Origin: a virus
Virus record (IMG/VR): IMGVR_UViG_3300030331_001547
Location: 1 to 23,410 of that record
DNA length: 23,410 bases
Strand: one strand, 5' to 3'
Positions within the stretch are counted from its first letter, which is position 1. Every line of letters starts with the position of its first letter. A program made the translations under genes and the position numbers. The notes under the pieces were generated by a model, which saw only the letters and a program-made list of their open reading frames with translations, searched no databases and had not been told where the DNA came from. Of this stretch, positions 6,001 through 19,241 are shown piece after piece.

Positions 6001-9000
6001 GATATTTGGTGAAGCAATAATAGAGCAAGTAAGAAGCGGAAGTATAGACTCAAACACTATAGAGGTAATAAACAAAACCCTTAAATCGCAGTTCCAAAAA
6101 TCTATGAAGCTACGTGCTCCAGGTGGACTACTACATCAATCTACAGACTTTGCTATAGACACAGAGAACATATCTAAAGATAAGATATCTGAATCTCCAG
6201 GACTAAAAGGTTATGTAAAAGAAGATGGTAACATAAAAGAATATGCAGAGGTTATTGTAGATGAGTCTTTGGGTTATGGAGAAGGTGATGTTATTATACT
6301 ACAAAGGGTTCCTTTCTCTAAATTAGGAGATGCTGTAATAGGTAGGGTAAAAGGCACTGTGTCTAATTCAGGTTCTATGGTTATGATTCCAGCAGAGCTT
6401 TCACACAAGATAGGTTCTGATATGGACGGTGACTCATTGCATGTTGTAGGTAAGTTTAAAGAAGAAAAAAACAAAGCTCAAGAAGAATTCAATGCAGCTT
6501 TTCAGTCGGTTGTAGATATGTTAAGCAAGAAAGAGTATCAAGCATACATGGAGGCTGATATGAACTTTGAGTCTGCTGTAGAAGAAGCTGTAAGTAAATT
6601 TCCAAAAGGAATAACCCCAGTCAATGATAATAAAAATGATTTATCTATACTAGGTAATAACGATATATACAAATCAAATGTATTAGGTGCTGGTATGATA
6701 GGTATTGCGGCTGTGTTAAACACTACACAAAAGACATTAAGTAACTTTAAAGTTCTGGGACACCCATTAAAAAGCACTATTAATGGCAAAGAAATACAAA
6801 GAAGCTTTGAGGATGGTGGTAATGCATTTAAAAATGTAGCCTATATATTAAACATCTTTTTAGACAATGCAAGTAAAGGTAAGGCTAACCAGATGAATAT
6901 GAACATCCATACGTTTCCTATTATACAACAACTTGTATTAAGAAACGTAGAGTTCAATAATATTATGGCTATACTTAATCACCCTGCTACAAAAAGGGTT
7001 TCAGAAATACTATCTAATACAGAGGGTAGGCCAGCAGATAATATTCCAACAGCTATAGGACAAGCTTTACAAGAATTAAATGTTACATCTTTAGCTGAGT
7101 ATGATATACAAATAAATGATGGCTTTGTAAATCAAAATGCTGAAGTGTTAACTTTATTACGTGAAATCTATGATGTAAAGGAAGGGGCTGAGCAAAATTA
7201 TTTTGGTCAAGGAACTTCTTTCTTGGGAACTATTAGCACGTTAAATAACTTGGACAGTAAAATGCCTGAAAACATACACGGTGCTAGAGAGTTAAAGGCT
7301 AAAATAGATAAGTTAATAAAACATATATCTGGAACAAAAGGCTCTGCAATATTTGATGCATCTGATTTATATAAAAATGGACAGTTTACTTCACCTGTGT
7401 TACAAGAAAACTATACTAAACTAACTGAATATATAAATGATTTAACTAAGCTAGACCCTGTTCACCAATCAGAGCTTAAATCTCTAGCCACATCAGAAGA
7501 GTTTACTAATAAATTAAAATCATTACTGTTAAGAAAAGTAGGTCCAGAACTATATCAATACAATCCTGCAAATATTTTAGGAAGCGTAATGTCTGCTGAT
7601 GTAAAGGTTCTTGAAAAACTAGCTAATCCAGAATCAAAAATTCAAGAAGTTAACAATATAATTTTAGAAAATTTATTAAAAGTCTCTTTGAACAATTCGC
7701 AGTATGAGTTCTTTAAGTTTTTGACTATAGAAAAGGTAGGGTCAAACTACAAAATTAAACTAAACAGAAACATAAAAGAAAACTACGAATTAGCACAAGA
7801 GGCTTTTGAAAAACTACCACTTAACATGCAAGACTATTTAGCTCATTATGATTTAGTTTTTAATAATCATACGGGTATAGATGCTATATTACCTTACATG
7901 GGTAAGTCAAAAAAATCAAAAAGATTTGGTATATACAAATTAGGTAAAAAAATAAATTTAGAAAAGGTAGCAGAAGGGGTGGATTTAAAAAGAGTAGAAA
8001 ATTATATAAAAAGTCCAACAATTACCGCGAAAATGAATTACTTTTTTATAGAAAAGGCTAGAGAAGAACTTGTTATAGAAGAAAACGAGTCAGGCGAGGT
8101 AATGTATTCTAGAAAGGTTCAGCCAGAGGTGTTGGGTGTAGCTAAAGGTAAACAAATTATAGACCAAGATGGTAACTTTGGTAGCACAGCTATGTATTCT
8201 TATTCAGAACAAATAGATTCAGAAGAAAATATGCCTGGTATTAAAGGTATGATTGAATATTTAAGAGTTGCTGCAGGTAAATCTTTTGAAAGCAAACAAG
8301 ACATGGAGGCTAGAATGGAGACAAAGCAAAAAGAGGCTTACGAAGAAATGTATAAAAAATACAGAGAGGACTTTGTTAAAGTGTCTGAGTTAGAAGCTCA
8401 ACTATTATCTACTGATGAAAGTGGTAATATGAAAATTGAATCTGATGCATATACTGTAGATGATTTAATTAAACAAATGAAAGAGTTAAACACGTTTGAC
8501 AAAACTGCTAAAACAAGACTTTATAACACTATTGGTCAAGTTGTAGGAGCTAAAATAGCATTAAAGGTTATTCAAACACAACTTAACAATGCAGAAAAAA
8601 ACGGTCTTTCTCAAGAAATAATAGATAAATTAGAAAAAGAAAAACAAGACATAAAATTAAAAAAACAAGGGGGTGATGTTAGTAAGGTTGCTAAATGGTT
8701 AAGCACTGATATAAGTGATTCAATTAGAGGTGAAATAGCAGAACTTCTGAATGTTCTTAATCAAGAAGAGATGTTGTATGGAATAGAAATGGATAAGGTT
8801 AATAATAAGTTTAAAATGGATAAAACTTATGAAAACTTATTAAAATCTAAACTTGGTAAAGGTAAAAGTAGCCTGTGGTTTTTAAAGTATGGCTTGTATA
8901 AACTTAGTTATGTGGCTAGATATTATTATAATCAAAGAATTTTTGGAAACATAATGATAGAAGAACAAAAAGAAGTCCCTGCAATGATTGAAAGAAATGG

Positions 9001-10969
9001 CAAACAAGTACAGGTTGGAACTAAATATGCTAGAGTGTTAAGATTAAAAAATGAAGCAGAGGCTAAAAATTCTAATTTTTCTAAAGAAGAACAAGCTTAT
9101 TACAATATGTATAAGCAGGTAACTGAAACTTTCCAAAATCATTTATCACAAAAAATAGGACAAGATGGAGAAGTGGTCTTAAAAGAAAAAAGAAAAGATT
9201 ATATACCTCACAGAAGTATGTCTAGGAATGAAATGATGATTGCTAGGAATTTAACTTCTGCTTATATATTAAATAACTACTCGCATGAACTATCTAAGAT
9301 TGTGGTCGTAAACAGAAAAACTGGAGAGTCTAAACCTTTGCGTGACTTTATTGAAGAATATAAGATTTTACAAATAGATAAAAATACAAAGGGCTCTATT
9401 AAATTAGGCTCTGCGCAAGATAGAGCTTTGAGGTCAGAAATAAAACAACTTATATCTGATGCTAATAGGTATTTAAAAAGAGGAACTGATGCAGATGGTA
9501 ATATTATCATTAGAGAACAAGCGCAAGATAATGAAATGGGTAAATACTTTAACAGATATGTAGAAGAACGTTCTAGTTCTGCTGAATTTAAAGGCTCAAT
9601 AGATATGCACGCAGCTTTACAAGACTACGTTAGAACTAATTTATTTTATCATGGTTTAGATTCTCAGTCAGGATTTAAATTTAAAGGTATAACAGAGCAG
9701 ATACCATTAATAGATGGTATAATGGGTTATCAATCTTTAAGGGGCAGAGAAAACGCAAGAACTTGGGTAAAAGAGTTATTGTTAGAAAGATATGTTTTGA
9801 AAAAGACAACTAAAAAATCTTTATTTACAGCTAGTGGAGAAAGAATTTGGGCAGACAAAATATTTGAAAATTTACATAAGTGGACAATGTTTATTGGTTT
9901 AGGTTTTAACTTTACTGCGGGTGCTGGTAACATATTAATAGGTAAGTACAACACCTTTAGACAAGCTGGTTGGACTAAATTTAGAGTTGGTGAAGCTAGA
10001 TTTTTTGGTATGACTAAAAAAGGTTTTGATAAAAACATTGCTAATAAAACTAGAAAGATAACTACATACTTTGGTTTATTAAATGAATCTTCTGCACAAA
10101 TTAGTGAAGATATATTTAGAGGTCCATTTGGAGATTTAGTGTTTGTTGCCATGGTAGGTTCAGAGAAGTATATACAAAGAGCACAGTTCGCAGGTATGAT
10201 GACAGATGCTGAGTTTGATTCTTTTGAAATAGTAAATGGTCAAGTAAAAGTAAAACCAGGCCAAAACACTGTAGAGAAAAACAAAACTAATCAAGAAGTA
10301 TTTGATGAGTTATCTAAAAATGCTGACAGATATAAGTCAAAAATATTTGAAGTGCAGGGTCAGGGTTATACAGCATTAGACCAAAGATTAATACAACACT
10401 ATTCTATTGTAAATGGTTTGTTACAATTTAAGAGATGGTTGCCTACATTTATATTAGATAGAATGTCTGCAGAAAAACAACTAAGAAGTGGAGAGTGGTA
10501 CATAGGTACAGCTCCTGCTATGATATCTTATATGAAAGATGTTATACTTGACCCAGATGGTAAAGATGTAAGAGGTAAGTTTGGCGCTGCCTTTAGAAAG
10601 CTTCCAAAACACAGACAAGAGGCTGTAGCTAGAGCTTATAGAGGTGTGCTTGGTATGATGACTGTAGTTTGTTTATATGCATTTACAGGAGGGTTTAGTG
10701 AAGATGATGATGAAAGTGCTGTACAGAAACAATTAAAAAGAACTTTCTGGGATATGAACCTTATGTTAAACATAGACAAATGGCAATATATGATTTCTAT
10801 GCCAGCAGCACAAACAGGTGAAAACTTATTATTTGGTATGAAAGATTTAGTTACTAGAGCAGAGTATCAAAGAGATGCAAAGTATGGTGATAAAGGAGAT
10901 TTAAAAGCGCGTGGTAGATTAGCTAGATTGTTCCCTAATATTGTTAGAGGTACGTTTGCTAAAGAGTAA
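5..10969 (+). CDS. Giant virion-associated polyprotein with RNA-polymerase-like DxDGD and HExxH motifs
   Basis: At least 3654 residues. The frame is open to the window edge, so the ATG at 5 may be internal and the true start upstream. Seen in order: Gly/Ala-rich hydrophobic segments near residues 160-187, 226-246 and 366-385; a Lys/Glu/Gln-rich coiled-coil region at about 480-670; an HExxH zinc-peptidase motif (H798, E799, H802) with EEAVA at 904-908 as a possible third ligand; GGLLHQ at 2040-2045; then R2101-x-P2103 followed by IPAELSHKIGSDMDGD with D2139, D2141 and D2143; and hydrophobic stretches near 3300-3315 and 3546-3564. The spacing from RxP to GSDxDGD is that of the double-psi beta-barrel holding the catalytic Mg-binding aspartates of two-barrel RNA polymerases; crAss-like phages carry a similar signature in a huge virion protein. 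Inference: it is packaged in the capsid and ejected with the DNA, and may transcribe early genes. The polymerase call is motif-based only. It could instead be a large polyvalent protein that has lost activity. Confidence 0.75.
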   Translation: MDLPQEASEGAKTAAFNSDINYVDYTAGGEFLRSFTAGVGQVFNSFADTMDWLTGTDSVTGETTPVSPAGVIEKFGPATAQMGPAGPSIVVLDKLVGAETGLNIADAFRAVGDALESVDDNINMSGIDGQFTTLDENGNLKISFAQMANPKFWYTKVAQQIPNLLTFMVGGAAVGKLAVKGAKAIGVADKIAFKGPSLLKSIGTGLGSKAMGKLPNTVIKGKDIAGFIGGGAGANMLEGAMIAGEAHRQVLEKGGTLDQASAAAYGVFEDNLKWMAIDALQYNILTKGLKGIGAAVKLNSGINFKTAIARFALGSGVAVNEGILEQFQEVHQDWSTKKNTAEVLGEKFDTGFFEYFNDPAVAETRVVAFSLGILGAGTGIVNQGVREMAISTIDSIAERSRIIDKKIKQTGLSEEYDENLLFAQATKEINEKGYSKEFTKAEAVAQKVEEIREKFLAGIVAAGEIELGNMHIDRLVKEQKLTQEEGDSFKQKMNEIQEAFNKYDNVGMGRLTFEAKKEMAYLAYYQSKNDEVIQQNKDYYQAQREKVEANTKMSDKVKKQNLEDIAAEEKQTIEILEETGKGYQQSMDNLYDESRILAEKLKKEREDKINQRLAQQQEEQEQESPTQIKEQEIKQEKKKEVEKIKSEIEKLRKRVVDNKTTKSKQSNQRKIFRLLEQKYIAQGLSKENAKKTVKEVRSILDANLKFTLSKKGQQEIETGQMDDVKIEMKKGKRFFALEKALTEKFRKKNVNIVIGDFSNTRFSKEIGQSFDNVRLNGAAMGLSAYLDLNNLTRSVLRHEFSHIYMSVYWNSGPMKALKKIVLKSNFYKEAQRNYYDQLIFKKDGVKYRLSDIINQQEIQGYLEWRKKTKKADKSVDGYLASQRSKLTKLGYEKLTASQQRFVLEEAVAKVLEAPLSDSQIKKAFTTQDSPTAKRKIDGFFSYVSSVFTRQDSKQILEAANIEGLVTELKDAVGAVDIDMKKVKPFTKRVRRQKGYGNKMQSRYIMNTRQTAKNAIKTEINNLIYSEAFKETRESKDSFNPTGKRKGMPTAKYIQALQNLITQNSEQMQENVQQYGEEVSNYLFDNNGKPRKDFFELVNEEFQSYRTSPIVKMDSEYESFTENDENFVEAFLETRNGEGRMGEFMSDFVKKQISIGGVDINLRHLRQVLYNSVKDINGVMLTKEQYVERQETMLDILKEGETFTSENQLLANFMNYMKEVYKGDNTMQGNPIEHIYQELSSFKQIDFHTISLVNGKYQIKKATKIENNIIKNRARKFFTNSFQVKDNKLTGEGFTDNMVSRLNLVSNLMSVHNKMIDSSLSDEQKTKIAKEFVYENLFKNNNELYSSPEAIDDAVVEEFVKFENVEESATFKLIQDLARIEFQDKKGSKRAYAQDARRGKKDRAHVIEVIKKFAERNDLQLAIEEGKLDPNFKENFKSLMEFSINNNNFLRAINKKTTTPARLIINRDGSLNFAQVYPDAKRFSQGVLNSILEKAIETQELKEFDSMMLMPNNEKINVTAKMNFTDNLIGYINQEMKTEEGKKNLLEMFEGNLYIENAIKNNTLPEIVEVMGYVRGEDGFARGKAPANVYTSAQIGLIVDAIESGTDTYSQSVTVFSDKKNEVHIKNTKLLTLEEARKEIKKFEGSPVTFLNGDTYLSGDQNFINQLTKDLETFVNNNSIEVSPNILEQVALNYAINKMHAKDLLLGPAKYFKNGRDYIKRSAGPIASGIKMGGRIEPIMIKDSVFYLNKEDESDIIFEEQYNKLPNKKKKQYDEVNRTDATSFILPEDGKDIKSLFGGVRQPGNHYKFVYNGQNFDNKQFENKFGKRLPFYGKTNVFVLSDNLIAQYPKFAQLAQALRLRRKQGVVPVIMFNSAIKVQSNEMTESLVSVDELQELLKNEGKKLNEMQDDFFVDRENGLTGLDGNNFFLQTELDKSSSDAIFGKQFIAMLLSLPQNSKEAVGVVKKLMNARNSLNENKLSKFRPDNKDFREAVANVMDPKIFGEAIIEQVRSGSIDSNTIEVINKTLKSQFQKSMKLRAPGGLLHQSTDFAIDTENISKDKISESPGLKGYVKEDGNIKEYAEVIVDESLGYGEGDVIILQRVPFSKLGDAVIGRVKGTVSNSGSMVMIPAELSHKIGSDMDGDSLHVVGKFKEEKNKAQEEFNAAFQSVVDMLSKKEYQAYMEADMNFESAVEEAVSKFPKGITPVNDNKNDLSILGNNDIYKSNVLGAGMIGIAAVLNTTQKTLSNFKVLGHPLKSTINGKEIQRSFEDGGNAFKNVAYILNIFLDNASKGKANQMNMNIHTFPIIQQLVLRNVEFNNIMAILNHPATKRVSEILSNTEGRPADNIPTAIGQALQELNVTSLAEYDIQINDGFVNQNAEVLTLLREIYDVKEGAEQNYFGQGTSFLGTISTLNNLDSKMPENIHGARELKAKIDKLIKHISGTKGSAIFDASDLYKNGQFTSPVLQENYTKLTEYINDLTKLDPVHQSELKSLATSEEFTNKLKSLLLRKVGPELYQYNPANILGSVMSADVKVLEKLANPESKIQEVNNIILENLLKVSLNNSQYEFFKFLTIEKVGSNYKIKLNRNIKENYELAQEAFEKLPLNMQDYLAHYDLVFNNHTGIDAILPYMGKSKKSKRFGIYKLGKKINLEKVAEGVDLKRVENYIKSPTITAKMNYFFIEKAREELVIEENESGEVMYSRKVQPEVLGVAKGKQIIDQDGNFGSTAMYSYSEQIDSEENMPGIKGMIEYLRVAAGKSFESKQDMEARMETKQKEAYEEMYKKYREDFVKVSELEAQLLSTDESGNMKIESDAYTVDDLIKQMKELNTFDKTAKTRLYNTIGQVVGAKIALKVIQTQLNNAEKNGLSQEIIDKLEKEKQDIKLKKQGGDVSKVAKWLSTDISDSIRGEIAELLNVLNQEEMLYGIEMDKVNNKFKMDKTYENLLKSKLGKGKSSLWFLKYGLYKLSYVARYYYNQRIFGNIMIEEQKEVPAMIERNGKQVQVGTKYARVLRLKNEAEAKNSNFSKEEQAYYNMYKQVTETFQNHLSQKIGQDGEVVLKEKRKDYIPHRSMSRNEMMIARNLTSAYILNNYSHELSKIVVVNRKTGESKPLRDFIEEYKILQIDKNTKGSIKLGSAQDRALRSEIKQLISDANRYLKRGTDADGNIIIREQAQDNEMGKYFNRYVEERSSSAEFKGSIDMHAALQDYVRTNLFYHGLDSQSGFKFKGITEQIPLIDGIMGYQSLRGRENARTWVKELLLERYVLKKTTKKSLFTASGERIWADKIFENLHKWTMFIGLGFNFTAGAGNILIGKYNTFRQAGWTKFRVGEARFFGMTKKGFDKNIANKTRKITTYFGLLNESSAQISEDIFRGPFGDLVFVAMVGSEKYIQRAQFAGMMTDAEFDSFEIVNGQVKVKPGQNTVEKNKTNQEVFDELSKNADRYKSKIFEVQGQGYTALDQRLIQHYSIVNGLLQFKRWLPTFILDRMSAEKQLRSGEWYIGTAPAMISYMKDVILDPDGKDVRGKFGAAFRKLPKHRQEAVARAYRGVLGMMTVVCLYAFTGGFSEDDDESAVQKQLKRTFWDMNLMLNIDKWQYMISMPAAQTGENLLFGMKDLVTRAEYQRDAKYGDKGDLKARGRLARLFPNIVRGTFAKE

Positions 10970-11968: not shown

Positions 11969-12160
11969 ATGGGAAGTTTATTAGATAACCTTAGAGGTTC
12001 AAGAAAAACAAGTAGAAGTAAAAGCAGAACGTCTGTTGCTAAATCAAGATTTAAAAGCAAACTATCTTCTAAAGCTACTAAAATCGTTGCTAAGCCTAAA
12101 AAGGCAGCTTCAAAACCTGGAAAACCTGGAAAACCTGGAAAAGGAAAAGGTAAAGGTTAA
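11969..12160 (+). CDS. Small Lys/Arg/Ser-rich protein with KPG-repeat tail
   Basis: 63 residues, extremely basic. The N-terminal two thirds is rich in Ser, Arg and Lys (SRKTSRSKSRTS). The C-terminus is three exact KPG repeats followed by GKGKG. The composition is like histone H1 tails or other disordered nucleic-acid-binding peptides; the short Gly-Lys-Pro run also resembles a minimal collagen-like tract. It sits between two probable structural genes with gaps of about 20 bases, so it is probably expressed late. Inference: DNA condensation or charge neutralisation inside the head, or an accessory virion peptide. No defined family is recognised. Confidence 0.6.
   Translation: MGSLLDNLRGSRKTSRSKSRTSVAKSRFKSKLSSKATKIVAKPKKAASKPGKPGKPGKGKGKG
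12113..12139 (+). repeat. Three tandem 9-base repeats (AAACCTGGA) encoding KPG
   Basis: Three identical in-frame copies of AAACCTGGA, followed by degenerate Gly-Lys codons up to the stop at 12158-12160. The exact nucleotide identity, not just the amino-acid repetition, points to recent slippage expansion. Confidence 0.85.
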
Positions 12161-12179: not shown

Positions 12180-12794
12180 ATGCCTGGAATAAAAACAACC
12201 ATATATGATGCTTGTGTAATGGTAAATAACACAACATTTGATTTAAGGGGACCTGCAGCTAAAGTTGGTATTACCGCTAATGGCCCTGTGTCTAAAGGAC
12301 AAAAAACTATTAGGGTAAATGGGACAGATGCAACGGGATTAGATGTAGGTGATAAATTAGTAAGTGGACTAACTGGAAATGCTATAGGTATTGTTGAATC
12401 AACAACAACGAATTCTATAACCCTTGTAAGAGGCAGTCTTACTAGTTTAATTAATGATGACACTATAGAGTTAGCTCCTAGATTTGAAATTGTAGCTATT
12501 ATGCCTCTTGGTAAAACAGCTTCTGATTTAAATGAAAGTTCTACAGAGCTTACTGTTTTAATACCAGTTAATAGAAATTGGATAGGAACACTTGCGCCTA
12601 ATGGAGGTACTTATTCTGACTTTGACGATGCTGTTACTAGATTTGGCGCTGGTAGTGAGACCACAAAACCCCTTATAGCCTCTCAATGTTTTCCTTCTGG
12701 AACTTTAATTGAAGGAAGATGGAAAGCTTGTGGTGTGGGTGCTAATGAGTTTGCTATGCTTTATTTAAAAGCATCTCCTTCTCAAACTTTTTAA
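12180..12794 (+). CDS. Probable beta-rich virion structural protein
   Basis: 204 residues. The segment at about residues 38-97 has the pattern of a small beta-barrel seen in many phage head or tail proteins: KTIRVNG, GLDVGDKLV, AIGIVES, SITLVRG, INDDTIEL. The remainder is also beta-rich, and there is a Gly/Phe-rich stretch near 140-160 (GGTYSDFDDAVTRFG). There is no signal peptide or membrane helix. It lies in the structural operon with a one-base gap to the next start, so the two genes are probably translationally coupled. Likely a head-decoration or tail-associated protein; I cannot name the family. Confidence 0.65.
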   Translation: MPGIKTTIYDACVMVNNTTFDLRGPAAKVGITANGPVSKGQKTIRVNGTDATGLDVGDKLVSGLTGNAIGIVESTTTNSITLVRGSLTSLINDDTIELAPRFEIVAIMPLGKTASDLNESSTELTVLIPVNRNWIGTLAPNGGTYSDFDDAVTRFGAGSETTKPLIASQCFPSGTLIEGRWKACGVGANEFAMLYLKASPSQTF

Positions 12795-12795
12795 A

Positions 12796-13866
12796 ATGAA
12801 AAATATATTAGTCATATTAGTATTACTATGTTCTGTGGCTAATGCCCAAATAGAAAACTTTTTTAAATATTCTACTTTTTATGTATCTAGCTCAATGAGT
12901 TCTTCTACATTGGAAGATGGTATGTATAAAATAGAAAACAAAGTCTTAATGGATATTACAGAAGTAAATCCATTTGATTATAACTACACTATAGGTCTGC
13001 GTAAGGTGGCTCGTTTTGATTACGAACACAAAGTTAAATCATTCTATGATGGTACAGAGTCACAGATATCAAATAAAGCTCCTATAGGCAACGCAAAAGG
13101 CTTTGAATACTTAGCAAACCTTTCTTTGGTACGAGATAGAGGAGAGGAGTTTGTAAATCAGGATTTCTTCCTACGTTATTTGAGTGATTCGTACCTTATT
13201 AAAAGTCAGTTTGTAGACAATCAAAAGTATGATTTAAAGTATATATTATCAGAGTTAAGATGGAGAAAAAACGTAGGAAACTTTGATTTTTCTATAGGTG
13301 CAGCATTTAGAGTGCACCCTGTTTATGGGATAGTTCCTATAAACGAATCTTGGGACCCAGCTGTAACACCTTTTTCTGCAATAGCAGAAGATTTTGGTTA
13401 TGTAAGCGAACAGTGGTCACAAGGAGGCTACGTAAACTATGATTGGTTTGATATTTCTAGTGGAGATTCAGTTCAAGTAGCACATTCAACAGGAGAATTT
13501 ATGAGACATTACTTTGGTAATGCTATAGATGAATATAATGACAGAGAACTTAAGAAATTAGGTTTACAAAAAGAATTATCTGTTATATTCGGGGTTGCTT
13601 ATTATAAGTACACTTCTGATTTTTGGCTACATGGCTGGATGAATGTCCTGCCCTACCATATAGGACTAGACGATTATAGTTTTGATTACAGTGATAATCA
13701 GTGGTCAGAGGAGGGCATACCAGCTATTATAGAATGGGATGCTGGACTTGTTATGGGGTATAGAATAACTAGAAATCTTGGCTTTTTTGTAGAAGGGACG
13801 CACCAAAGATATTGGATGCGCCCCATATATGAATTTAAGATTGGAATAAATTTCTTATTTTTATAG
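12796..13866 (+). CDS. Phage-encoded outer-membrane beta-barrel-like exported protein
   Basis: 356 residues beginning with a classical signal peptide (MKNILVILVLLCSVANA, predicted cleavage ANA|Q at 17/18; Gln at +1 is typical of flavobacterial exported proteins). The mature part is rich in Tyr, Phe, Trp and Asp with alternating hydrophobic positions. It ends in amphipathic strands (GFFVEGTHQRYW, then YEFKIGINFLFL) like those that close outer-membrane barrels. No catalytic motif is seen. It is followed after one base by another exported protein. Possible roles, all inferred: remodelling the host outer membrane late in infection, superinfection exclusion, a lysis aid, or a virion protein that happens to carry a cleavable leader. 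Confidence 0.7.
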   Translation: MKNILVILVLLCSVANAQIENFFKYSTFYVSSSMSSSTLEDGMYKIENKVLMDITEVNPFDYNYTIGLRKVARFDYEHKVKSFYDGTESQISNKAPIGNAKGFEYLANLSLVRDRGEEFVNQDFFLRYLSDSYLIKSQFVDNQKYDLKYILSELRWRKNVGNFDFSIGAAFRVHPVYGIVPINESWDPAVTPFSAIAEDFGYVSEQWSQGGYVNYDWFDISSGDSVQVAHSTGEFMRHYFGNAIDEYNDRELKKLGLQKELSVIFGVAYYKYTSDFWLHGWMNVLPYHIGLDDYSFDYSDNQWSEEGIPAIIEWDAGLVMGYRITRNLGFFVEGTHQRYWMRPIYEFKIGINFLFL

Positions 13867-13867
13867 T

Positions 13868-14542
13868 ATGAAAAGATTATTATTTATAATATTATTTGTA
13901 TTTGGTTATGGATTTAGTCAAACAAACTGTCAACTATGTGTTGAACAAAATGGATTTTATTGTGGAGATGACCCTGCTAATTGGACTCAGTATTCTCCTA
14001 ATGGCTGCGTTCCTAATGGTCTTAATGACCTTTTTTATCTTAATGATGGGTGGGAAGATTGTGTCGATGGTAGCGACGAGCAAGACGCTGTTCCTACAAC
14101 GATTTTAGATTGTTTGCCGCCACTTCCTGATTGTGATACTATATTCTTAACAGAATACGAAACTATATTTGATACTATAATAAACACAGAATTTGTTTAT
14201 GAAATTATAATAGACACCGTAGAAGTAGAGGTGTTTGTACCAGAATATATATATGTAATAGATACTGTAACTGTATATGAAGATATTTTAGACACATTGT
14301 TTGTAGATGTAATAGAGTATGTAGATGTTATGGTTTATGATACTATTATAGAAATAGAATATGTAGAGTTTATAGAATATGTAGATTGTGAAACGGGTTT
14401 ACCTTGTTCGTCTAATCTACAAGAAATAATAAAAGCAACAGAGGGCAATAATAGAATGTATAACTTATTAGGTCAGGCAATCAGAGAACCTAAGGGTTTA
14501 TATATCCAAAATGGAAAAATTAAGTATAAATTAAAAAATTAA
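13868..14542 (+). CDS. Secreted protein with LDLa-like motif and T9SS-like C-terminal sorting signal
   Basis: 224 residues. A signal peptide (residues 1-17, GFS|Q) precedes a Cys-rich segment (C21, C24, C32, C47, C65) with NGCVPN and then GWEDCVDGSDEQ (61-72). That is the calcium-binding end of LDL-receptor class A modules (C-x-D-G-S-D-E), although the last Cys is late (C82). Residues about 90-173 are a low-complexity acidic beta-prone tract of repeating Asp-Thr-Ile/Val and Glu-Tyr-Val units. The last 30 residues (MYNLLGQ... KGLYIQNGK... then a Lys-rich end) match the type A T9SS sorting domain, in which YdllGq and GiYi-ngkK are the hallmarks. Inference: it is exported through the host Sec and T9SS pathways and displayed on or released from the cell surface. 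Confidence 0.7.
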   Translation: MKRLLFIILFVFGYGFSQTNCQLCVEQNGFYCGDDPANWTQYSPNGCVPNGLNDLFYLNDGWEDCVDGSDEQDAVPTTILDCLPPLPDCDTIFLTEYETIFDTIINTEFVYEIIIDTVEVEVFVPEYIYVIDTVTVYEDILDTLFVDVIEYVDVMVYDTIIEIEYVEFIEYVDCETGLPCSSNLQEIIKATEGNNRMYNLLGQAIREPKGLYIQNGKIKYKLKN

Positions 14543-14547
14543 AAGTC

Positions 14548-15072
14548 ATGCCTAATAAAAAAAGAAAAAAATTATTTAAAATAACAAGATTTACAGATGA
14601 ACTTGGAAATAAAAAAGGTTCTCTTAAAGAATACAGAAATCCTTTTACAGGAGCGTATAGAACAGTAGAAAAAGATAGAAGAAACATAACTGGTACCGGT
14701 GAACTTTCTAAAACAAAACAGGTAGGAACACGTAAAAAAGGATTAAAAAAAATAAAATCTAAGAGACCTGGTATGGGATATTCAAAGGTGAAGTATATGC
14801 ACGGAGGAATGACAATGAGCTCTCCTAGTTTATTAGACAATGTAAAGACTACTTATGAAATGGGTGGTGTTATGGAAAAATATGCTATGGGTGGAAAACT
14901 AAAAGAGGTTATGCCAAATCAAAAAGGATTAGCAAAGTTGCCTAAAGAGGTTAGAAACAAAATGGGATATATGAAAAAAGGTGGAATGATGAAAGAGTAT
15001 AGAAAAGGTGGAAAAATGGAATATGGTCATGGAGGAATGATGAATGGAGGAATGATGAGACAACACGACTAA
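14548..15072 (+). CDS. Basic protein with repeated Y-x-x-GG-x-M units and C-terminal QHD
   Basis: 174 residues. The N-terminal half is Lys/Arg-rich (KKRKKLFK, RKKGLKKIKSKRPG). From about residue 83 onward GG recurs seven times, in units such as YMHGGM, YEMGGV, YAMGGK, YMKKGGMM, YRKGGKM and YGHGGMM, ending NGGMMRQHD. The unit resembles the single GG-(I/M) plus Q-x-D ending found on five other small proteins nearby, so this gene may be the repeated form of that tag. It has no membrane helix or signal peptide and is probably disordered or DNA-binding. The function is unknown; similar Gly/Met/Lys-rich small proteins are common in environmental phage genomes. Confidence 0.65.
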   Translation: MPNKKRKKLFKITRFTDELGNKKGSLKEYRNPFTGAYRTVEKDRRNITGTGELSKTKQVGTRKKGLKKIKSKRPGMGYSKVKYMHGGMTMSSPSLLDNVKTTYEMGGVMEKYAMGGKLKEVMPNQKGLAKLPKEVRNKMGYMKKGGMMKEYRKGGKMEYGHGGMMNGGMMRQHD

Positions 15073-15074
15073 TC

Positions 15075-15362
15075 ATGCCAGGTAGAAAAAAATATAGAAA
15101 TATAGCTTCTTCTATGGGTGAAAACTCTAAAGTAATAACCACTGACACAAAAATTAAAGAAAAAGGTAAAAGGGGAAAATTTAAATATAAATTTAACCCT
15201 GACGGAACTCTTAAAAAAACTGTTAGAAAAAAAGGTTTGAGAAGAGTAGTAGATAAACCTAAAAGAGATTCTAGAAAAACTATGGCTAATAGATTTAGAA
15301 ATATCATAGATGAAAGAAGAACTTCTAGGTTTATGGATGGTGGAATAATTCAACACGATTAA
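15075..15362 (+). CDS. Small basic protein ending GGIIQHD
   Basis: 95 residues, Lys/Arg-rich throughout, with no hydrophobic helix. Starts MPGRKKYRN; mid-protein Lys-Gly-Lys-Arg-Gly-Lys runs; ends RFMDGGIIQHD. It begins two bases after the previous stop (TAATCATG). The final seven residues are identical to the end of the 18688-18957 product, although the rest of the two proteins does not match. It is likely expressed late with the lysis and structural genes; the role is unknown, with nucleic-acid or virion-interior binding inferred from charge. Confidence 0.65.
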   Translation: MPGRKKYRNIASSMGENSKVITTDTKIKEKGKRGKFKYKFNPDGTLKKTVRKKGLRRVVDKPKRDSRKTMANRFRNIIDERRTSRFMDGGIIQHD

Positions 15363-15364
15363 TT

Positions 15365-15598
15365 ATGAATATATTTAAAGACGATAACAATTGGAATGAA
15401 AAGTCTATAGTAGGATTTATAGCTTTTCTTATTATGGTTGTTGTTATGGTAATAGATTTAATAACTGGAGCTGTAGGTTCTGATTTAGTTATAAATAAAT
15501 TTGTGTATGATTCATTTGTATGGGTTGTTCTTGGCTGTTTTGGAATAAGTGGTGTAGAAAAGTTTTCAAATAAAAAATGTAATAATTGTCCTAAATAA
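15365..15598 (+). CDS. Small two-helix membrane protein, holin-like
   Basis: 77 residues with two hydrophobic segments (about 15-36, IVGFIAFLIMVVVMVIDL, and 48-64, around FVWVVLGCFGI), a charged N-terminus and a short Lys/Cys-rich C-terminal tail (NKKCNNC). Size and topology fit a class II holin or a small membrane accessory protein of the lysis cassette. Its stop codon overlaps the next start by one base (TAATG), indicating translational coupling. A second, longer holin candidate lies at 17196, so which one sets lysis timing is open. Confidence 0.6.
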   Translation: MNIFKDDNNWNEKSIVGFIAFLIMVVVMVIDLITGAVGSDLVINKFVYDSFVWVVLGCFGISGVEKFSNKKCNNCPK

Positions 15599-15882
15599 TG
15601 TCAAAAGAAATATCAGAAGATTCAAAGTTTGAAGTTAGTATTAAAACCCTAGGTGGACTAGCGGTGTTAATATTTGCTTTTGTAGGCATGTGGTTTACTC
15701 TTCAAGCTGAGATAGCTGAAGCAAAGTTACTTCCTATACCGCCTGACCCTGAAGTAACAAAAATGGAATTTGATATGAAAGACCAAATGATTAGACAGAC
15801 TATATTAGATACACAAGAAGACATGAAAGAGGTAAAAGAAGACTTAAAGTATCTAAGAAACAAACTAGATAACATGAATTAA
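15598..15882 (+). CDS. Membrane-anchored coiled-coil protein, spanin-like topology
   Basis: 94 residues: a short cytoplasmic-type N-terminus, one hydrophobic segment (about 18-35, LGGLAVLIFAFVGMWFTL), a Pro-rich linker (PIPPDPE) and a C-terminal amphipathic coiled coil (about 58-94) rich in Glu, Lys, Asp and Met. A type II anchor with a periplasmic coiled coil is the layout of inner-membrane spanins, and the neighbours are holin-like and endolysin-like. No o-spanin lipoprotein partner with a lipobox is seen nested in or next to it, so the spanin assignment is tentative. It overlaps the upstream stop by one base. Confidence 0.5.
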   Translation: MSKEISEDSKFEVSIKTLGGLAVLIFAFVGMWFTLQAEIAEAKLLPIPPDPEVTKMEFDMKDQMIRQTILDTQEDMKEVKEDLKYLRNKLDNMN

Positions 15883-15883
15883 T

Positions 15884-16273
15884 ATGAATATTGCCAACGT
15901 TCTATATGTACTAATGATGTTGTTTTTTTTTGGATTAGGAATAACATTTGGACAAGGCTTTATTTGTTCTGATAATTTTAAAAATACAATAGCAAAAGAT
16001 ATAGTTGCTATAGAATTTTGGGCCTCTTGGAATTCATCTAATGAGTTTTCAGAGTTTTCTAAACTAAAAGAATGCTCTAAATATAGAGTAGATGTAGGTA
16101 AATGTAACGAAATACAAAAACAGTATAGTGTTACAGGTATTCCTACTGTTATTATATTTGAAAACGGAGAAGAAAAAGAAAGGTTTAAACCTAATATTAT
16201 GTTTCAATTAAATGCAGATAGAAAAACTATACAACATTCAATAGACACATTAACATTAAATAAATTTCAATAA
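15884..16273 (+). CDS. Exported thioredoxin-fold protein lacking the CxxC active site
   Basis: 129 residues. An N-terminal hydrophobic segment (about 6-22, ending TFGQG) serves as signal peptide or anchor. The thioredoxin signature follows: VAIEFWASWNSSNEF (41-55), YRVDV, then the cis-proline loop TGIPTVIIFENGEE (84-97). Where thioredoxins have WCxxC there is W49-N-S-S-N53, so both redox cysteines are missing while the fold-defining residues are kept. The only cysteines (C28, C64, C74) lie elsewhere. Family knowledge says such proteins cannot do disulfide exchange in the usual way; a chaperone, inhibitor or binding role in the periplasm is inferred. It ends at the A of the next gene's ATG (TAATG overlap). 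Confidence 0.7.
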   Translation: MNIANVLYVLMMLFFFGLGITFGQGFICSDNFKNTIAKDIVAIEFWASWNSSNEFSEFSKLKECSKYRVDVGKCNEIQKQYSVTGIPTVIIFENGEEKERFKPNIMFQLNADRKTIQHSIDTLTLNKFQ

Positions 16274-16584
16274 TGACAGATTATAGTAAAAAATTTCGTA
16301 AAGAAAGAGATAAGTTTAAAAAAAAGAATATAAGGAGAAAAAAAAGGGGTAAAGAACTTATTGACCCTAGTGAATATACTTTTAAATATAGACCAAAAGG
16401 CTCAGGTCTTTTTAGTAAAAGAAAAACTTCTACAGTAGAGACAAGAAGTGAAAAACAAAAAAGAACAAAGCGTAAAATGCCACAACAATCAATACAGGGT
16501 GTAGGACGAGATATAGCATCTTCTAGATTTGGTCGTGGTGGTATTACAAAAGGTAGAGATATGTTTACTCAACAATATGATTAA
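16273..16584 (+). CDS. Small basic protein ending GGITKGRDMFTQQYD
   Basis: 103 residues, strongly basic (KKFRKERDKFKKKNIRRKKRG in the first 30), with a central YTFKYRPKGSG segment and a second Lys/Arg block. The end carries GRGGIT and, after a spacer, QQYD, fitting the GG...Q-x-D ending shared by six proteins of this cassette. No membrane or catalytic motif is seen. It sits between the thioredoxin-like and endolysin-like genes and overlaps the former by one base. Function unknown. Confidence 0.65.
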   Translation: MTDYSKKFRKERDKFKKKNIRRKKRGKELIDPSEYTFKYRPKGSGLFSKRKTSTVETRSEKQKRTKRKMPQQSIQGVGRDIASSRFGRGGITKGRDMFTQQYD

Positions 16585-16585
16585 T

Positions 16586-17194
16586 ATGAAATTAACTAAA
16601 GAAATAATAGAAGAGGGCGTAAGGTCAAAAGGTTATAGATGGTTTGAAAAAGGCGACTATAATCTTAATATAGTAGGCGTAAGAAACTCTAACACAGGCA
16701 CAGAAGTTACTAATAAGTTTGATGATAAGATAACATTATCATTTAAATGTGATGGTCAGTGGGAGTTTTATTGTTATGATTGTACTACTGACCCCGGTAA
16801 ATATTGGGTGGAGAATATAATGAGAGTGGAGGGTGTGGCCGTATTGAAGGAAGGACAGTATCGTGGTTCTCATAAAATTAGATTACATCAAGGTAGATAC
16901 GAGGCTTTAGGACAAAATGGTCCTGTAACTGTATATAGAGACGCTAATAAGGACAATAAGTTTGATTTAAGCGACGATAATACACAAACTGGACTCTTTG
17001 GTATAAACATACACAGAGCAACAAAATGGGGGGGTAAAAAATCTTCTAAGGTAGATAAGTGGTCTGCTGGATGTCAAGTAATAGCTGCTAATGACGATTG
17101 GCATGAGTTTATGGATATTTGTAGAGTGGCTAGAGATACTTGGGGTAACAGCTTTACTTATACTTTATTAGACAGTAAGGATTTAAAAATATAA
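16586..17194 (+). CDS. Putative endolysin with YkuD/L,D-transpeptidase-like H...SxGC motif
   Basis: 202 residues from the ATG at 16586, chosen over upstream ATGs (16529, 16577) because it follows the previous stop by one base (TAATATG), the junction used elsewhere in this operon. Conserved-looking blocks: CTTDPGKYW (66-74), YEALGQNGPVTVYRD (105-119), FGINIHRA (138-145) and KWSAGCQVI (158-166). H143 and C163 separated as H-x16-S-A-G-C reproduce the catalytic His...(S/T)-x-G-C pattern of the L,D-transpeptidase (YkuD) fold, although the usual His before Gly is Ala. Adjacent to holin-like genes, so a peptidoglycan-cleaving lysin acting on cross-bridges is the likely role. No signal peptide, so export would depend on a holin. 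Confidence 0.6.
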   Translation: MKLTKEIIEEGVRSKGYRWFEKGDYNLNIVGVRNSNTGTEVTNKFDDKITLSFKCDGQWEFYCYDCTTDPGKYWVENIMRVEGVAVLKEGQYRGSHKIRLHQGRYEALGQNGPVTVYRDANKDNKFDLSDDNTQTGLFGINIHRATKWGGKKSSKVDKWSAGCQVIAANDDWHEFMDICRVARDTWGNSFTYTLLDSKDLKI

Positions 17195-17195
17195 T

Positions 17196-17582
17196 ATGTT
17201 TAAAGAACTTTTAAAATCATTAGTAGGTGACGCAAGTAACATTATAGATAATGTTGTAACTACAAAGGAGGAAAAAATAAGATTAAAGAATGAGATGAAG
17301 CAAATGCTTTTAAATTCTGAAGCTGATTTACAAAGAAATGTAACAGATAGATGGAAAGCAGATATGGCATCTGATTCTTGGTTAAGTAAAAATGTAAGAC
17401 CAATAACTCTTATATTTATGTTAGTTTGTACTATGTTATTGATATTTATTGATGCAGGTGCAATAGACTTTACAGTAGAAGACAAATGGACAGATTTGTT
17501 ACAAATTGTTTTGATTACTATTGTAGGTAGCTATTTTGGAGGAAGGTCAATAGAAAAATTAAAAAATGGCAAAGGGAAATAA
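17196..17582 (+). CDS. Putative holin of the 3TM / gene-transfer-agent type
   Basis: 128 residues. An amphipathic, charged N-terminal half (KEEKIRLKNEMKQML) is followed by DRWKADMASDSWLSKNVRP (51-69), two clear hydrophobic helices (about 69-88 and 101-116) and the ending GSYFGGRSIEKLK. The DRW-x-AD...SWLSKN-x-RP block and the YFGGRS-x-EK tail are hallmarks I associate with phage holin families of the GTA 3TM type. It lies one base after the endolysin candidate (TAATATG), completing a holin-lysin pair. Its last codons overlap the start of the 41-residue gene at 17566. Confidence 0.7.
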   Translation: MFKELLKSLVGDASNIIDNVVTTKEEKIRLKNEMKQMLLNSEADLQRNVTDRWKADMASDSWLSKNVRPITLIFMLVCTMLLIFIDAGAIDFTVEDKWTDLLQIVLITIVGSYFGGRSIEKLKNGKGK

Positions 17583-17691
17583 TTTTAAATTTGTAGGGAA
17601 CAAAAGAAGTAAAAGACCTGGTGTACATTCAAAAAATGCATCTAAAGGTCAGAGTGCATATAAAAAACAATATAGAGGACAAGGTAGATAG
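17566..17691 (+). CDS. 41-residue basic protein (KRPGVHSK... YRGQGR)
   Basis: A short gene starting at the ATG inside the last codons of the holin gene (17-base overlap, different frame). The product begins MAKGNNFKFVGNKRSKRPG, contains VHSKNASKG, and ends KKQYRGQGR. The KRPGVH-x-K and YRGQGR ends match a tiny conserved protein I recognise from other environmental phages, which supports it as a real gene. Lys/Arg/Gly-rich and likely disordered. Unlike six neighbours it does not end in Q-x-D. Followed by tagTTATGGC, the start context of the next gene. Confidence 0.65.
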   Translation: MAKGNNFKFVGNKRSKRPGVHSKNASKGQSAYKKQYRGQGR

Positions 17692-17693
17692 TT

Positions 17694-18023
17694 ATGGCTA
17701 AAACACCCGCATGGCAACGTAAAGAAGGTAAAAATCCTAGTGGAGGATTGAACAAGAAAGGTGTAGCCTCTTATAGAAGAGCAAATCCAGGCTCTAAATT
17801 AAAAACAGCCGTAACTACTGACCCTAAAAAATTAAAAAAAGGTAGCAAAGCTGCTAAAAGAAGAAAGTCTTTTTGTGCTAGAATGAAAGGAATGAAGAAA
17901 AGATTGACTAGTGCAAAGACAGCAAGAGACCCTAATTCAAGAATTAATAAGTCATTGCGTAAATGGAACTGTGAAAAAGGGGGTATAGTTCCAATGCGTG
18001 ACGAATATGGACAATTAGATTAA
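17694..18023 (+). CDS. Conserved small phage protein with TPAWQRKEGK and RRKSFCARM motifs
   Basis: 109 residues. Motifs: TPAWQRKEGKNPSGGLN at the N-terminus, GVASYRRANPGSKLKTAV, then AKRRKSFCARMKGMKKRL and DPNSRINKSLRKWNC. This series is a widely distributed uncharacterised phage family (I believe a Pfam DUF, possibly DUF6321; the number is from memory). The two Cys (C61 and C93) lie in the conserved blocks. After the family domain ends at WNC there is an extra tail, EKGGIVPMRDEYGQLD, with the GG...Q-x-D ending shared by neighbouring unrelated proteins. That tail therefore looks like an appended tag. The role is unknown; strongly basic. Confidence 0.75.
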   Translation: MAKTPAWQRKEGKNPSGGLNKKGVASYRRANPGSKLKTAVTTDPKKLKKGSKAAKRRKSFCARMKGMKKRLTSAKTARDPNSRINKSLRKWNCEKGGIVPMRDEYGQLD

Positions 18024-18028
18024 TAGTT

Positions 18029-18196
18029 ATGGCAAAAAAATCAGTAAAAGCTCCAGCAGGTTTCCATTGGATGAAAAAAGGAAACAATACATTTAAGTTA
18101 ATGAAACATACAGGTAAATTTAAACCGCATCCAGGTGGAAGTTTATCTGCAAGTTTTGATGTACAAAAAAGACATAGAGTTGCAAAGAAAAAGTAA
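18029..18196 (+). CDS. 55-residue basic protein (PAGFHWMKKG...)
   Basis: Product begins MAKKSVKAPAGFHWMKKGN, continues FKLMKHTGKFKPHPGGSL, and ends QKRHRVAKKK. The paired blocks GFHWMKKG and KLMKHTGKF, with a central GGS, resemble a conserved small phage family seen beside the other basic proteins of this cassette. It begins five bases after the previous stop in the recurrent context TAGTTATGGC. Its 3' end overlaps the following gene in another frame by up to 38 bases, depending on that gene's start. Function unknown; basic and soluble. Confidence 0.65.
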   Translation: MAKKSVKAPAGFHWMKKGNNTFKLMKHTGKFKPHPGGSLSASFDVQKRHRVAKKK

Positions 18197-18473
18197 AGAC
18201 CCAAAAGTAGGGACAGGAAAAAAACCAAAAGGTTCTGGACGTAGATTGTATACTGATGAGAATCCTAAGGATACTGTAAGTATTAAATATGCTACAGAGG
18301 CAGATGCTAGAGCTACTGCAGCTAAAGTAAAAAGAATTAATAAATCTTTTGCTAGAAAAATACAAATACTAACAGTTGGAGAACAAAGGTCAAAGTATGG
18401 TGGTAAACCTAGACAAGCAGGTATATTTAAAAGAGCAAAACAAGCTATAAGAAGAAACCGTAAAAAAAAATAA
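18159..18473 (+). CDS. Conserved basic phage protein (GTGKKPKGSGRRLYTDENPKD)
   Basis: 104 residues if translated from the ATG at 18159. The conserved region runs from KDPKVGTGKKPKGSGRRL through YTDENPKDTVSIKYAT, to FARKIQILTVGEQRSKYG, and ends in a Lys/Arg tail (RRNRKKK). I recognise this as an uncharacterised family recurrent in phages, in which the conserved part begins close to the N-terminus. A TTG at 18180 (giving LQRKSKDPK) is therefore a plausible alternative start. An ATG further upstream at 18135 would deepen the overlap with the 55-residue gene and is less likely. The long overlap suggests translational coupling. No catalytic motif; nucleic-acid binding inferred from charge only. 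Confidence 0.7.
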   Translation: MYKKDIELQRKSKDPKVGTGKKPKGSGRRLYTDENPKDTVSIKYATEADARATAAKVKRINKSFARKIQILTVGEQRSKYGGKPRQAGIFKRAKQAIRRNRKKK

Positions 18474-18476
18474 ATT

Positions 18477-18686
18477 ATGCCAAAAGACGCGTGTTACCAT
18501 AAAGTTGTTCGTAGATACGGACCAAAGACATCAGCATACAGGAGTGGTGCTATGGCTAAATGTAGAAAAGTTGGAGTCTCTAACTGGGGAGAAGGTGGAA
18601 AGAAAAAGAAAAGAAGAGGAGGTGTTGTTAGAAAGATGAAACATGGTGGAATGATTAAATGTTTATTAGAGTATCAAAAAGATTGA
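18477..18686 (+). CDS. Small Cys-containing basic protein (DACYHKV) with GGMI...QKD ending
   Basis: 69 residues. The N-terminal half DACYHKVVRRYGPKTSAYRSGAMAKCRKVG with two Cys (C6, C29), and then NWGEGGKKKKRRGG, matches a recurrent uncharacterised phage family (D-A-C-Y-x-K-V ... S-A-Y-x-S-G-A ... K-C-R-K). The two Cys and His could bind a metal, but four ligands are not evident. After the Lys/Arg stretch the protein ends KMKHGGMIKCLLEYQKD, again GG-(M) with a spacer and terminal Q-x-D. Three bases separate it from the previous stop. Confidence 0.7.
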   Translation: MPKDACYHKVVRRYGPKTSAYRSGAMAKCRKVGVSNWGEGGKKKKRRGGVVRKMKHGGMIKCLLEYQKD

Positions 18687-18687
18687 T

Positions 18688-18957
18688 ATGGCTGTAAGAA
18701 AAACAAAAGCTGGATTAAGACTTAAGCGTTGGTTTAAAGAAGATTGGCGTACACCAAAAGGTAAAAAAGATTATAAAGGTGGGGAAAATACTTTTAGACC
18801 AACTAAAAGAATAAGTAAAGATACTCCTACCACATGGAGTGAGTTAAGTCCATCTGAAAAAGCTAGAGCTCAAAAAGAAAAAAACACAAAAGGTAGAGTT
18901 AGTAGATATAAAAAAAAGAAAAGATTTAGTAAAGGTGGTATAATACAACATGACTAG
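18688..18957 (+). CDS. Conserved basic protein (GLRLKRWFKEDW) ending GGIIQHD
   Basis: 89 residues. GLRLKRWFKEDWRTPKGKKDY, then TFRPTKRISKDTPTTWSEL and SPSEKARAQKEK, form a conserved pattern (K-R-W-F-K-E-x-W ... R-P-T-K-R-x-S-x-x-T-P-x-T) that I recall from uncharacterised proteins of phages and some large eukaryotic viruses. The final KGGIIQHD repeats exactly the last seven residues of the 15075-15362 product. The gene follows the previous stop by one base and precedes TAGTTATGGC. Function unknown; Trp/Lys-rich, likely nucleic-acid-binding. Confidence 0.7.
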   Translation: MAVRKTKAGLRLKRWFKEDWRTPKGKKDYKGGENTFRPTKRISKDTPTTWSELSPSEKARAQKEKNTKGRVSRYKKKKRFSKGGIIQHD

Positions 18958-18959
18958 TT

Positions 18960-19241
18960 ATGGCAAGAAATTCATTAGCAGGTAAAAGAACAGGAAAGTC
19001 TAAGACAGCAAAATTTTATGCAAAAAATCCTAAATCAAAGTCAAAAAAGAAATCATATGATAAAAAATATCATAGCACTACAGAAAGAAAAAACTACCGT
19101 GTATCGTTAAATAAAGCTAATAGAAACAATCCTAGAAGCAAAAAAGGTGATGGTAAAGATATGTCACATACTCAGACAGGTTCACTAGTTTTAGAGCTAC
19201 AAAGACGAAACAGAGCTAGAAATAGAGGTAAAAAGGCGTAA
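18960..19241 (+). CDS. Conserved basic protein (SKTAKFYAKNP ... DMSHTQTG)
   Basis: 93 residues. Conserved-looking blocks: SKTAKFYAKNPKSKSKKKSYD, KYHSTTERKNYR, LNKANRN, then GDGKDMSHTQTGSLVLEL and a final RNRARNRGKKA. The same order of blocks occurs in a small uncharacterised family found in many environmental phages. Start context TAGTTATGGC two bases after the upstream stop. It is the last gene of the basic cassette and lacks the Q-x-D ending. DMSH with upstream His residues is suggestive of a metal or nuclease site but is not enough to call one. Confidence 0.7.
   Translation: MARNSLAGKRTGKSKTAKFYAKNPKSKSKKKSYDKKYHSTTERKNYRVSLNKANRNNPRSKKGDGKDMSHTQTGSLVLELQRRNRARNRGKKA

Follow-up and report, generated by a model that had tools for sequence, protein, structure and literature searches.

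Six small basic proteins with different bodies, all encoded within one stretch of viral DNA, end in a common C-terminal Q-x-D tag preceded by GG. The stretch (hereafter the window) comprises bases 1-23410 of the 32.6 kb virus record IMGVR_UViG_3300030331_001547. The tag sits outside the conserved protein bodies, occurs in an all-or-none manner among related genomes and is replaced elsewhere by other shared peptides. On balance, we think that the Q-x-D tail probably serves as a portable sorting signal that loads small basic proteins into the phage head, a C-terminal counterpart of the signal of phage T4.

All six products reported by a first-pass annotation of the window are present with the endings it gave, each on the plus strand. 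A 174-residue GG-repeat protein (14548..15072) ends in GGMMRQHD (tag codons ~15046-15069); it has no PHROG or Pfam match, and its homologues occur with the tag in most genomes with Q-x-D endings. The adjacent 95-residue protein (15075..15362; tag codons ~15339-15359) ends in GGIIQHD and has a 91% identical relative in one other locus found by search (L082), with further tagged members added by clustering. A 103-residue protein (16273..16584; tag codons ~16537-16581) ends in GGITKGRDMFTQQYD, and its extended tail, [RN][DN]xF[TS][QE]QYD, is found again on other bodies in three genomes (G002, G012, G019). The remaining three products belong to what we call the core families. The first (17694..18023; 109 residues) meets the 28.5-bit Pfam cut-off for DUF6321 (PF19846; E 3.8e-20, 72.7 bits) and matches phrog_727 (E 8.9e-39). 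Its domain spans residues 12-91 and is followed by the tag EKGGIVPMRDEYGQLD (tag codons ~17979-18020; C-terminal ending GGIVPMRDEYGQLD); untagged relatives stop at WNC residues. The second, a 69-residue protein that we call 'DACYHKV' (18477..18686; tag codons ~18645-18683), ends in GGMIKCLLEYQKD and matches residues 268-310 of phrog_727, a cyanophage family that also contains DUF6321; in its relatives, the tail is swapped or absent. The third (18688..18957; 89 residues; tag codons ~18934-18954) ends in GGIIQHD and meets the 27.5-bit cut-off for DUF5872 (PF19197; E 5.2e-12, 46.8 bits), with the domain at residues 5-67. The Pfam boundaries thus bear out the claim that the tag lies beyond the family domain in the 17694 and 18688 products.

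Q-x-D endings are far more frequent in the tagged genomes than composition would predict. Using the DUF5872 protein as query, we identified 80 loci in viral contigs and assembled a comparison set from the whole or near-whole records of 24 DUF5872-locus phages plus the window's own record. Thirteen of these 25 records have the Q-x-D tag and 12 are untagged relatives that hold the same gene families; gene calling was mechanical, and protein totals contain some false open reading frames (ORFs). Within the window's record, 6 of 47 predicted proteins have Q-x-D endings (binomial P ~3e-10). Across the 13 tagged records, such endings are found on 57 of 907 predicted proteins (~2 expected from composition), concentrated among small basic proteins (54/188) as opposed to other proteins (3/719), and Q-x-D is the commonest final a-x-b pattern. 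The 12 untagged relatives have none (0/806). These counts reject a chance origin and answer a doubt raised by the first-pass annotation, that such endings might be common by chance: genome-wide, they are rare. A compositional bias of basic proteins is rejected as well: within such proteins, internal Q-x-D is rare (8 of 14568 positions), and the untagged genomes have no Q-x-D endings.

The tag is also shared or lacking jointly by unrelated proteins, as seen in three core families that are found in nearly every locus. DUF5872, DUF6321 and DACYHKV agree in tag status in 76 of the 78 loci that hold at least two of them, though these loci are related by descent and do not represent 78 independent events. 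The two discordant loci end in the near-tag sequences EQHA and EQHG. A lone tag, that is, a homologue with the same ending in a phage lacking other tagged proteins, was not seen among the core families in related genomes. In a portal tree, the tagged phages form nearly one group, and their distribution needs only one or two changes.

The consensus of the tag is GG-[FMI]-[YLI]-R-Q-[HLY]-D at the exact C-terminus. We compiled 49 non-redundant tails by requiring Q third-last and D or N last, such that the presence of Q in 49/49 and of D (44) or N (5) at the end reflects the selection, and what is informative in its own right is the second-last residue, the upstream positions and the genome-wide counts. 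The second-last residue is H, L, Y, K or N, nearly always one of the first four. Reading back from Q, the preferences are R, then Y/L/I, then F/M/L, then G. Among tagged proteins, 83% have GG in their final 25 residues, versus 10% of the remaining small basic proteins of these genomes. The distance of GG from the end is highly variable, and GC or CG replaces it in some tails. The earlier description of the tag as an invariant Q-x-D preceded by GG-Ile/Met therefore needs amending: Q is invariant, whereas D gives way to N in 5/49 tails and one DUF5872 subclade ends in EQH plus a variable residue, and the Ile/Met rule holds within the window but not outside it, where GG precedes K, R, F, S and others.

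Codon use places the constraint on the protein. Q is encoded by CAA or CAG, D by GAT or GAC and the middle residue by any of ten codons, and each of the three stop codons occurs. This variation argues for a protein-level signal rather than for selection on DNA, and a DNA-level cause or ribosome-binding constraint was rejected given that codons, stops and spacing vary. Clustering of the bodies after the last 22 residues were cut off yielded 17 groups, one of which resembles a chance ORF, so that ~16 families carry the tag, in line with the initial observation that the tagged bodies come from different families. Several of these groups are restricted to one or two genomes and are still tagged, suggesting that genes new to a genome come to bear the tag. 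AlphaFold models are of low confidence (mean predicted local distance difference test score 52 for DUF5872 and 59 for DUF6321), with the tails least ordered.

A comparison across lineages revealed that the same bodies exchange one terminal peptide for another. Body identity stays above 75% while the tails change. For DUF5872, the bodies match that of the window's protein at 78-88% identity, and the tail differs in each lineage (alignment A1): after RVSRYK, the proteins continue with GGIIQHD, SGGKFLRQLD, VKAVRKRKR, GGGFILPGPTMI or RINKRKKKK. Some DUF5872 proteins have lost the tail and gained an N-terminal SPF peptide. In further lineages, these families have shared peptides of a different kind. 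An N-terminal SPF-K peptide, found in one untagged lineage (G028, 16599-17561 and 46560-46847; L048-L050), is common to DUF5872, DACYHKV, DUF6321 and a 188-residue KSP-repeat protein. In another lineage, VNK[KR] ([RK][VIL]NK[KR]) is present at either end of at least six small basic families (G006, 12618-14572; G009, 6793-7848 and 52237-52572). An N-terminal MRxYY..GG peptide marks DUF6321 and DACYHKV-type proteins in eight loci (L171, L172, L192, L193, L196, L200, L209 and L226), where it occurs in 13 ORFs versus 3/9405 elsewhere. These peptides were first spotted by eye and counted afterwards; the MRxYY count is the firmest, and the others come from few genomes.

A tentative broader reading, which we find nearly as easy to believe as to doubt, is that small basic cargo proteins form a common pool among marine phages and that each lineage re-addresses them by swapping a terminal peptide, with the peptide matching that lineage's head-assembly machinery. 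T4-like phages would use a T4-type N-terminal sequence as the label, one crassvirus-like lineage would use the C-terminal GG..QxD tag, and other lineages would use N-terminal SPF or MRxYY..GG peptides or VNK. If true, this would amount to a sequence-readable code of cargo address labels.

Relatives of the tagged families suggest that they are head cargo. The one feature common to the internal proteins of T4 is a short N-terminal capsid targeting sequence (CTS), which is sufficient to load foreign proteins (PMC9026906, PMC3012670, PMC7697877) and in which residues 4 and 7 mainly direct targeting and residues 8 and 10 processing (PMC9026906). T4 IPII and IPIII start with MKTYQEFIAEA. We observe T4-type sequences at the N-terminus of five short DUF6321 proteins from T4-like cyanophages: S-CREM1 (MKTYNDFITE), P-SSM7 (MKTYSQFIEE), P-TIM40 (MKNFAQYIEE) and the less similar S-RIM44 (MKSFKQLRID) and ACG-2014j (MRDYKELKEL). 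The S-CREM1 sequence, which matches T4 at both the targeting and the processing residues, comes immediately before the start of DUF6321 (VAAWQRKEG). The same loose pattern is found in 9/1540 background ORFs, although it was picked after the sequences had been viewed, so that a P value is only indicative. DUF6321 proteins in AG-345-E15, L168, L170 and L185 have T4-like starts as well.

Two further observations bear on the cargo nature of these families. Mass spectrometry of the S-CREM2 virion detected ORF137 and ORF160 (PMC10665884, Table 3), and we identified DUF6321 in the former and the DACYHKV domain in the latter; the authors caution that virion preparations may be contaminated by proteins with high expression (PMC10665884). 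In S-B43 and other cyanophages, DUF6321 and DACYHKV are fused in one protein and thus probably act in one place. Capsid storage also has a precedent in phi-crAss001, which keeps cargo proteins in the capsid and in the tail barrel (PMC10172136).

A separate conserved protein of ~105 residues with a T4-type start (MKSFxxFxxE) adjoins DUF6321 genes in many cyanophages (L247, L248, L250, L254, L260) and is probably another head cargo.

The tagged phages appear, from their structural genes, to be a marine crassvirus-like lineage. G002, a complete or near-complete tagged genome, has matches to Crass_capsid (1.7e-32), CrAss_Ring_1 (1.2e-29), CrAss_Ring_2 (6.9e-12) and P22_portal (9.1e-11), and its capsid protein is ~28% identical to gut crassvirus capsids. 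The head and tail gene region seen in G002 is missing from the window's own record. A scan of bacterial genomes returned no DUF5872 relative and gives no evidence on the host.

In the mechanism that we favor, unrelated small basic proteins would use their free C-termini to dock to a shared partner in the head as it assembles; by analogy with T4, the inner scaffold or the shell is the most likely partner. Once docked, the proteins would become part of the head and travel with the DNA to the next cell. A flexible C-terminal peptide that enters a pocket would suit the features of the tail: a fixed Q and terminal D/N, a variable linker to GG and low predicted order. The docking partner and targeting as the job of the tag are inferred, and a later removal of the tag is possible. 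The only candidate partner that matches the clade is an acidic, scaffold-like protein of ~340 residues, encoded between the portal and capsid genes, which belongs to one family in tagged phages and to two other families in untagged ones. This pattern is expected of a tag-reading scaffold but also from descent alone. About ten families are present only in tagged phages, all tracking the clade, and we dropped the naming of any one of them as the receptor. Because the tagged genomes are nearly one group in the portal tree, a clade-level gene association cannot separate a partner from shared descent.

Several observations weigh against head loading as the function of the tag. We found virion proteomics for no tagged phage and no isolate of the DUF5872 group in INPHARED, and DUF5872 itself has no virion evidence. 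Many DUF6321 proteins, also among marine phages, have no evident tag; several large DUF6321 proteins of T4-like phages do not have a T4-type start, and neither do S-CREM2 ORF137 and ORF160. The Q-x-D tag is not found on the known phi-crAss001 cargo proteins. No receptor was identified, and the near-single grouping of tagged genomes confounds partner with descent. The first-pass interpretation is partly supported. Its core, a shared recognition signal that is probably for capsid loading, has strong support from the all-or-none pattern, the exchange of tails, the T4-type sequences with which some short DUF6321 relatives begin and the mass spectrometry of DUF6321- and DACYHKV-domain relatives in S-CREM2. 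Packaging in these phages themselves, a receptor and a protease are putative.

Among other explanations, an unlikely one is that the tag is chiefly a maturation signal, read by a phage or host protease that perhaps cuts after GG during head maturation, like T4 gp21 or the GG-specific proteases that act on core proteins of some eukaryotic viruses. The frequent GG at the border of the tag would fit such a role, as would the GG at the end of N-terminal tags elsewhere (MRxYY..GGx, KKGGS) and the cleavage of T4 targeting peptides (PMC9026906). However, the variable GG distance, the replacement of GG by GC or CG and the fixation of Q and the terminal D/N better fit binding of a free end. Moreover, no prohead protease of the Peptidase_S77 or Peptidase_S78 families, the two that our search covered, was matched in nine complete or near-complete records.

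We regard as somewhat less probable still that the tag sends its proteins elsewhere during assembly, for instance to the portal, to the tail barrel or, outside the capsid, to a nucleoprotein complex that condenses DNA. The tagged proteins are basic, DUF6321 genes adjoin terminase genes in many cyanophages and cargo is also held in the phi-crAss001 tail barrel (PMC10172136). Set against this, short DUF6321 relatives with T4-type capsid sequences speak for a location inside the head.

A general role of the tag in the stability of small basic proteins, for instance as a C-terminal degron or as protection from host proteases, seems improbable. The location of the tag at the free C-terminus of small and, judging from the low-confidence models, probably poorly folded proteins is compatible with this role, but the same bodies bear different peptides in other lineages, some of them N-terminal, and the same operons hold untagged small basic proteins. 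The window has five of the latter, starting at 11969, 17566, 18029, 18159 and 18960, and the tag is thus selective. All four of those described here are on the plus strand: a 41-residue protein ending in YRGQGR, in the same operon as tagged genes (17566..17691); a 55-residue protein (18029..18196); a 104-residue protein counted from an ATG at 18159 in a frame that opens with GTG at 18135 (18159..18473); and a 93-residue phrog_6437 protein (18960..19241). Finally, a functionless by-product of recombination among neighboring gene ends or of next-gene start constraints is very unlikely, the least probable account of all: tagged genes are often neighbors with stops a few bases from the next ATG, but linker lengths differ as do codons and stops, tags occur on genes far apart (G043, 36397; G019, 28358), and Q-x-D is kept across divergent genomes in its all-or-none pattern.

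Other genes in the window merit brief mention. Secreted-looking proteins are encoded at 13868-14542 and, in another locus (L014), at 6447-7109; their C-termini, LYNLLGQ..I..P.GLYIQNGKIKYKLK, by eye resemble Bacteroidota type IX secretion sorting domains, and an NCBIfam search with the window protein at E 0.1 gave no match. A thioredoxin-like protein at 15884-16273 (TIGR01068, E 5e-10, below the cut-off) has a CxxC site that seems to read WNSS and is possibly redox-inactive. Upstream of the late genes, a single 3654-residue ORF (5-10969; 3753 residues in G002) is probably a giant virion protein; a search limited to its last 989 residues did not identify it.

The literature that we found leaves the choice of head proteins in crassvirus-like phages unexplained. 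With a tag that can be read from sequence, cargo could be predicted for phages that are not in culture. Such a tag would also show that several phage lineages evolved T4-style address peptides, and it could supply an independent means of directing proteins into phage particles. Likely roles emerge as well for DUF5872 and DUF6321, of which the literature searched has a mention in a single paper (DUF5872).

A comparison with known systems highlights both parallels and differences. Encapsulin cargo-loading peptides are short, C-terminal, attached by a glycine-containing linker and load unrelated cargo into an HK97-fold shell. Encapsulins are cellular compartments, however, and their motif and shell differ from those of the tag system, where the shell is crassvirus-like. 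The phi-crAss001 cargo proteins gp45, gp46, gp47, gp49 and gp50 are stored inside a virion of related capsid and ring architecture, but are large and have no shared terminal tag; we found no explanation of their loading in the structural paper (PMC10172136). The phrog_727/phrog_3477 cyanophage proteins (T4-GC 119) hold DUF6321 and DACYHKV domains in one polypeptide and have relatives in the S-CREM2 virion, but are large fusions without the Q-x-D tag.

A further close parallel is the T4 CTS, found on IPI, IPII, IPIII and CTS-like basic proteins of T4-like phages. Both are peptides of ~10 residues on otherwise unrelated, mostly small basic proteins, and in some T4-like phages the CTS, too, is borne by DUF6321 proteins. 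The CTS is N-terminal, with the consensus M-K-T-[YF]-x-x-F-[IL]-x-E, and is cut off by gp21, whereas the tag is C-terminal, occurs in a different phage group and has no accompanying S77/S78 match in the nine records. Since it departs from the CTS in both position and consensus, we do not class the tag as a CTS member. Our literature searches returned no C-terminal, sequence-unrelated tag of the T4 kind in crassvirus-like phages, and the suggestion that the system is undescribed thus holds for the tag itself but not for its principle. The targeting-peptide principle is known from T4, and its C-terminal, sequence-unrelated crassvirus-like version is new to the literature searched.

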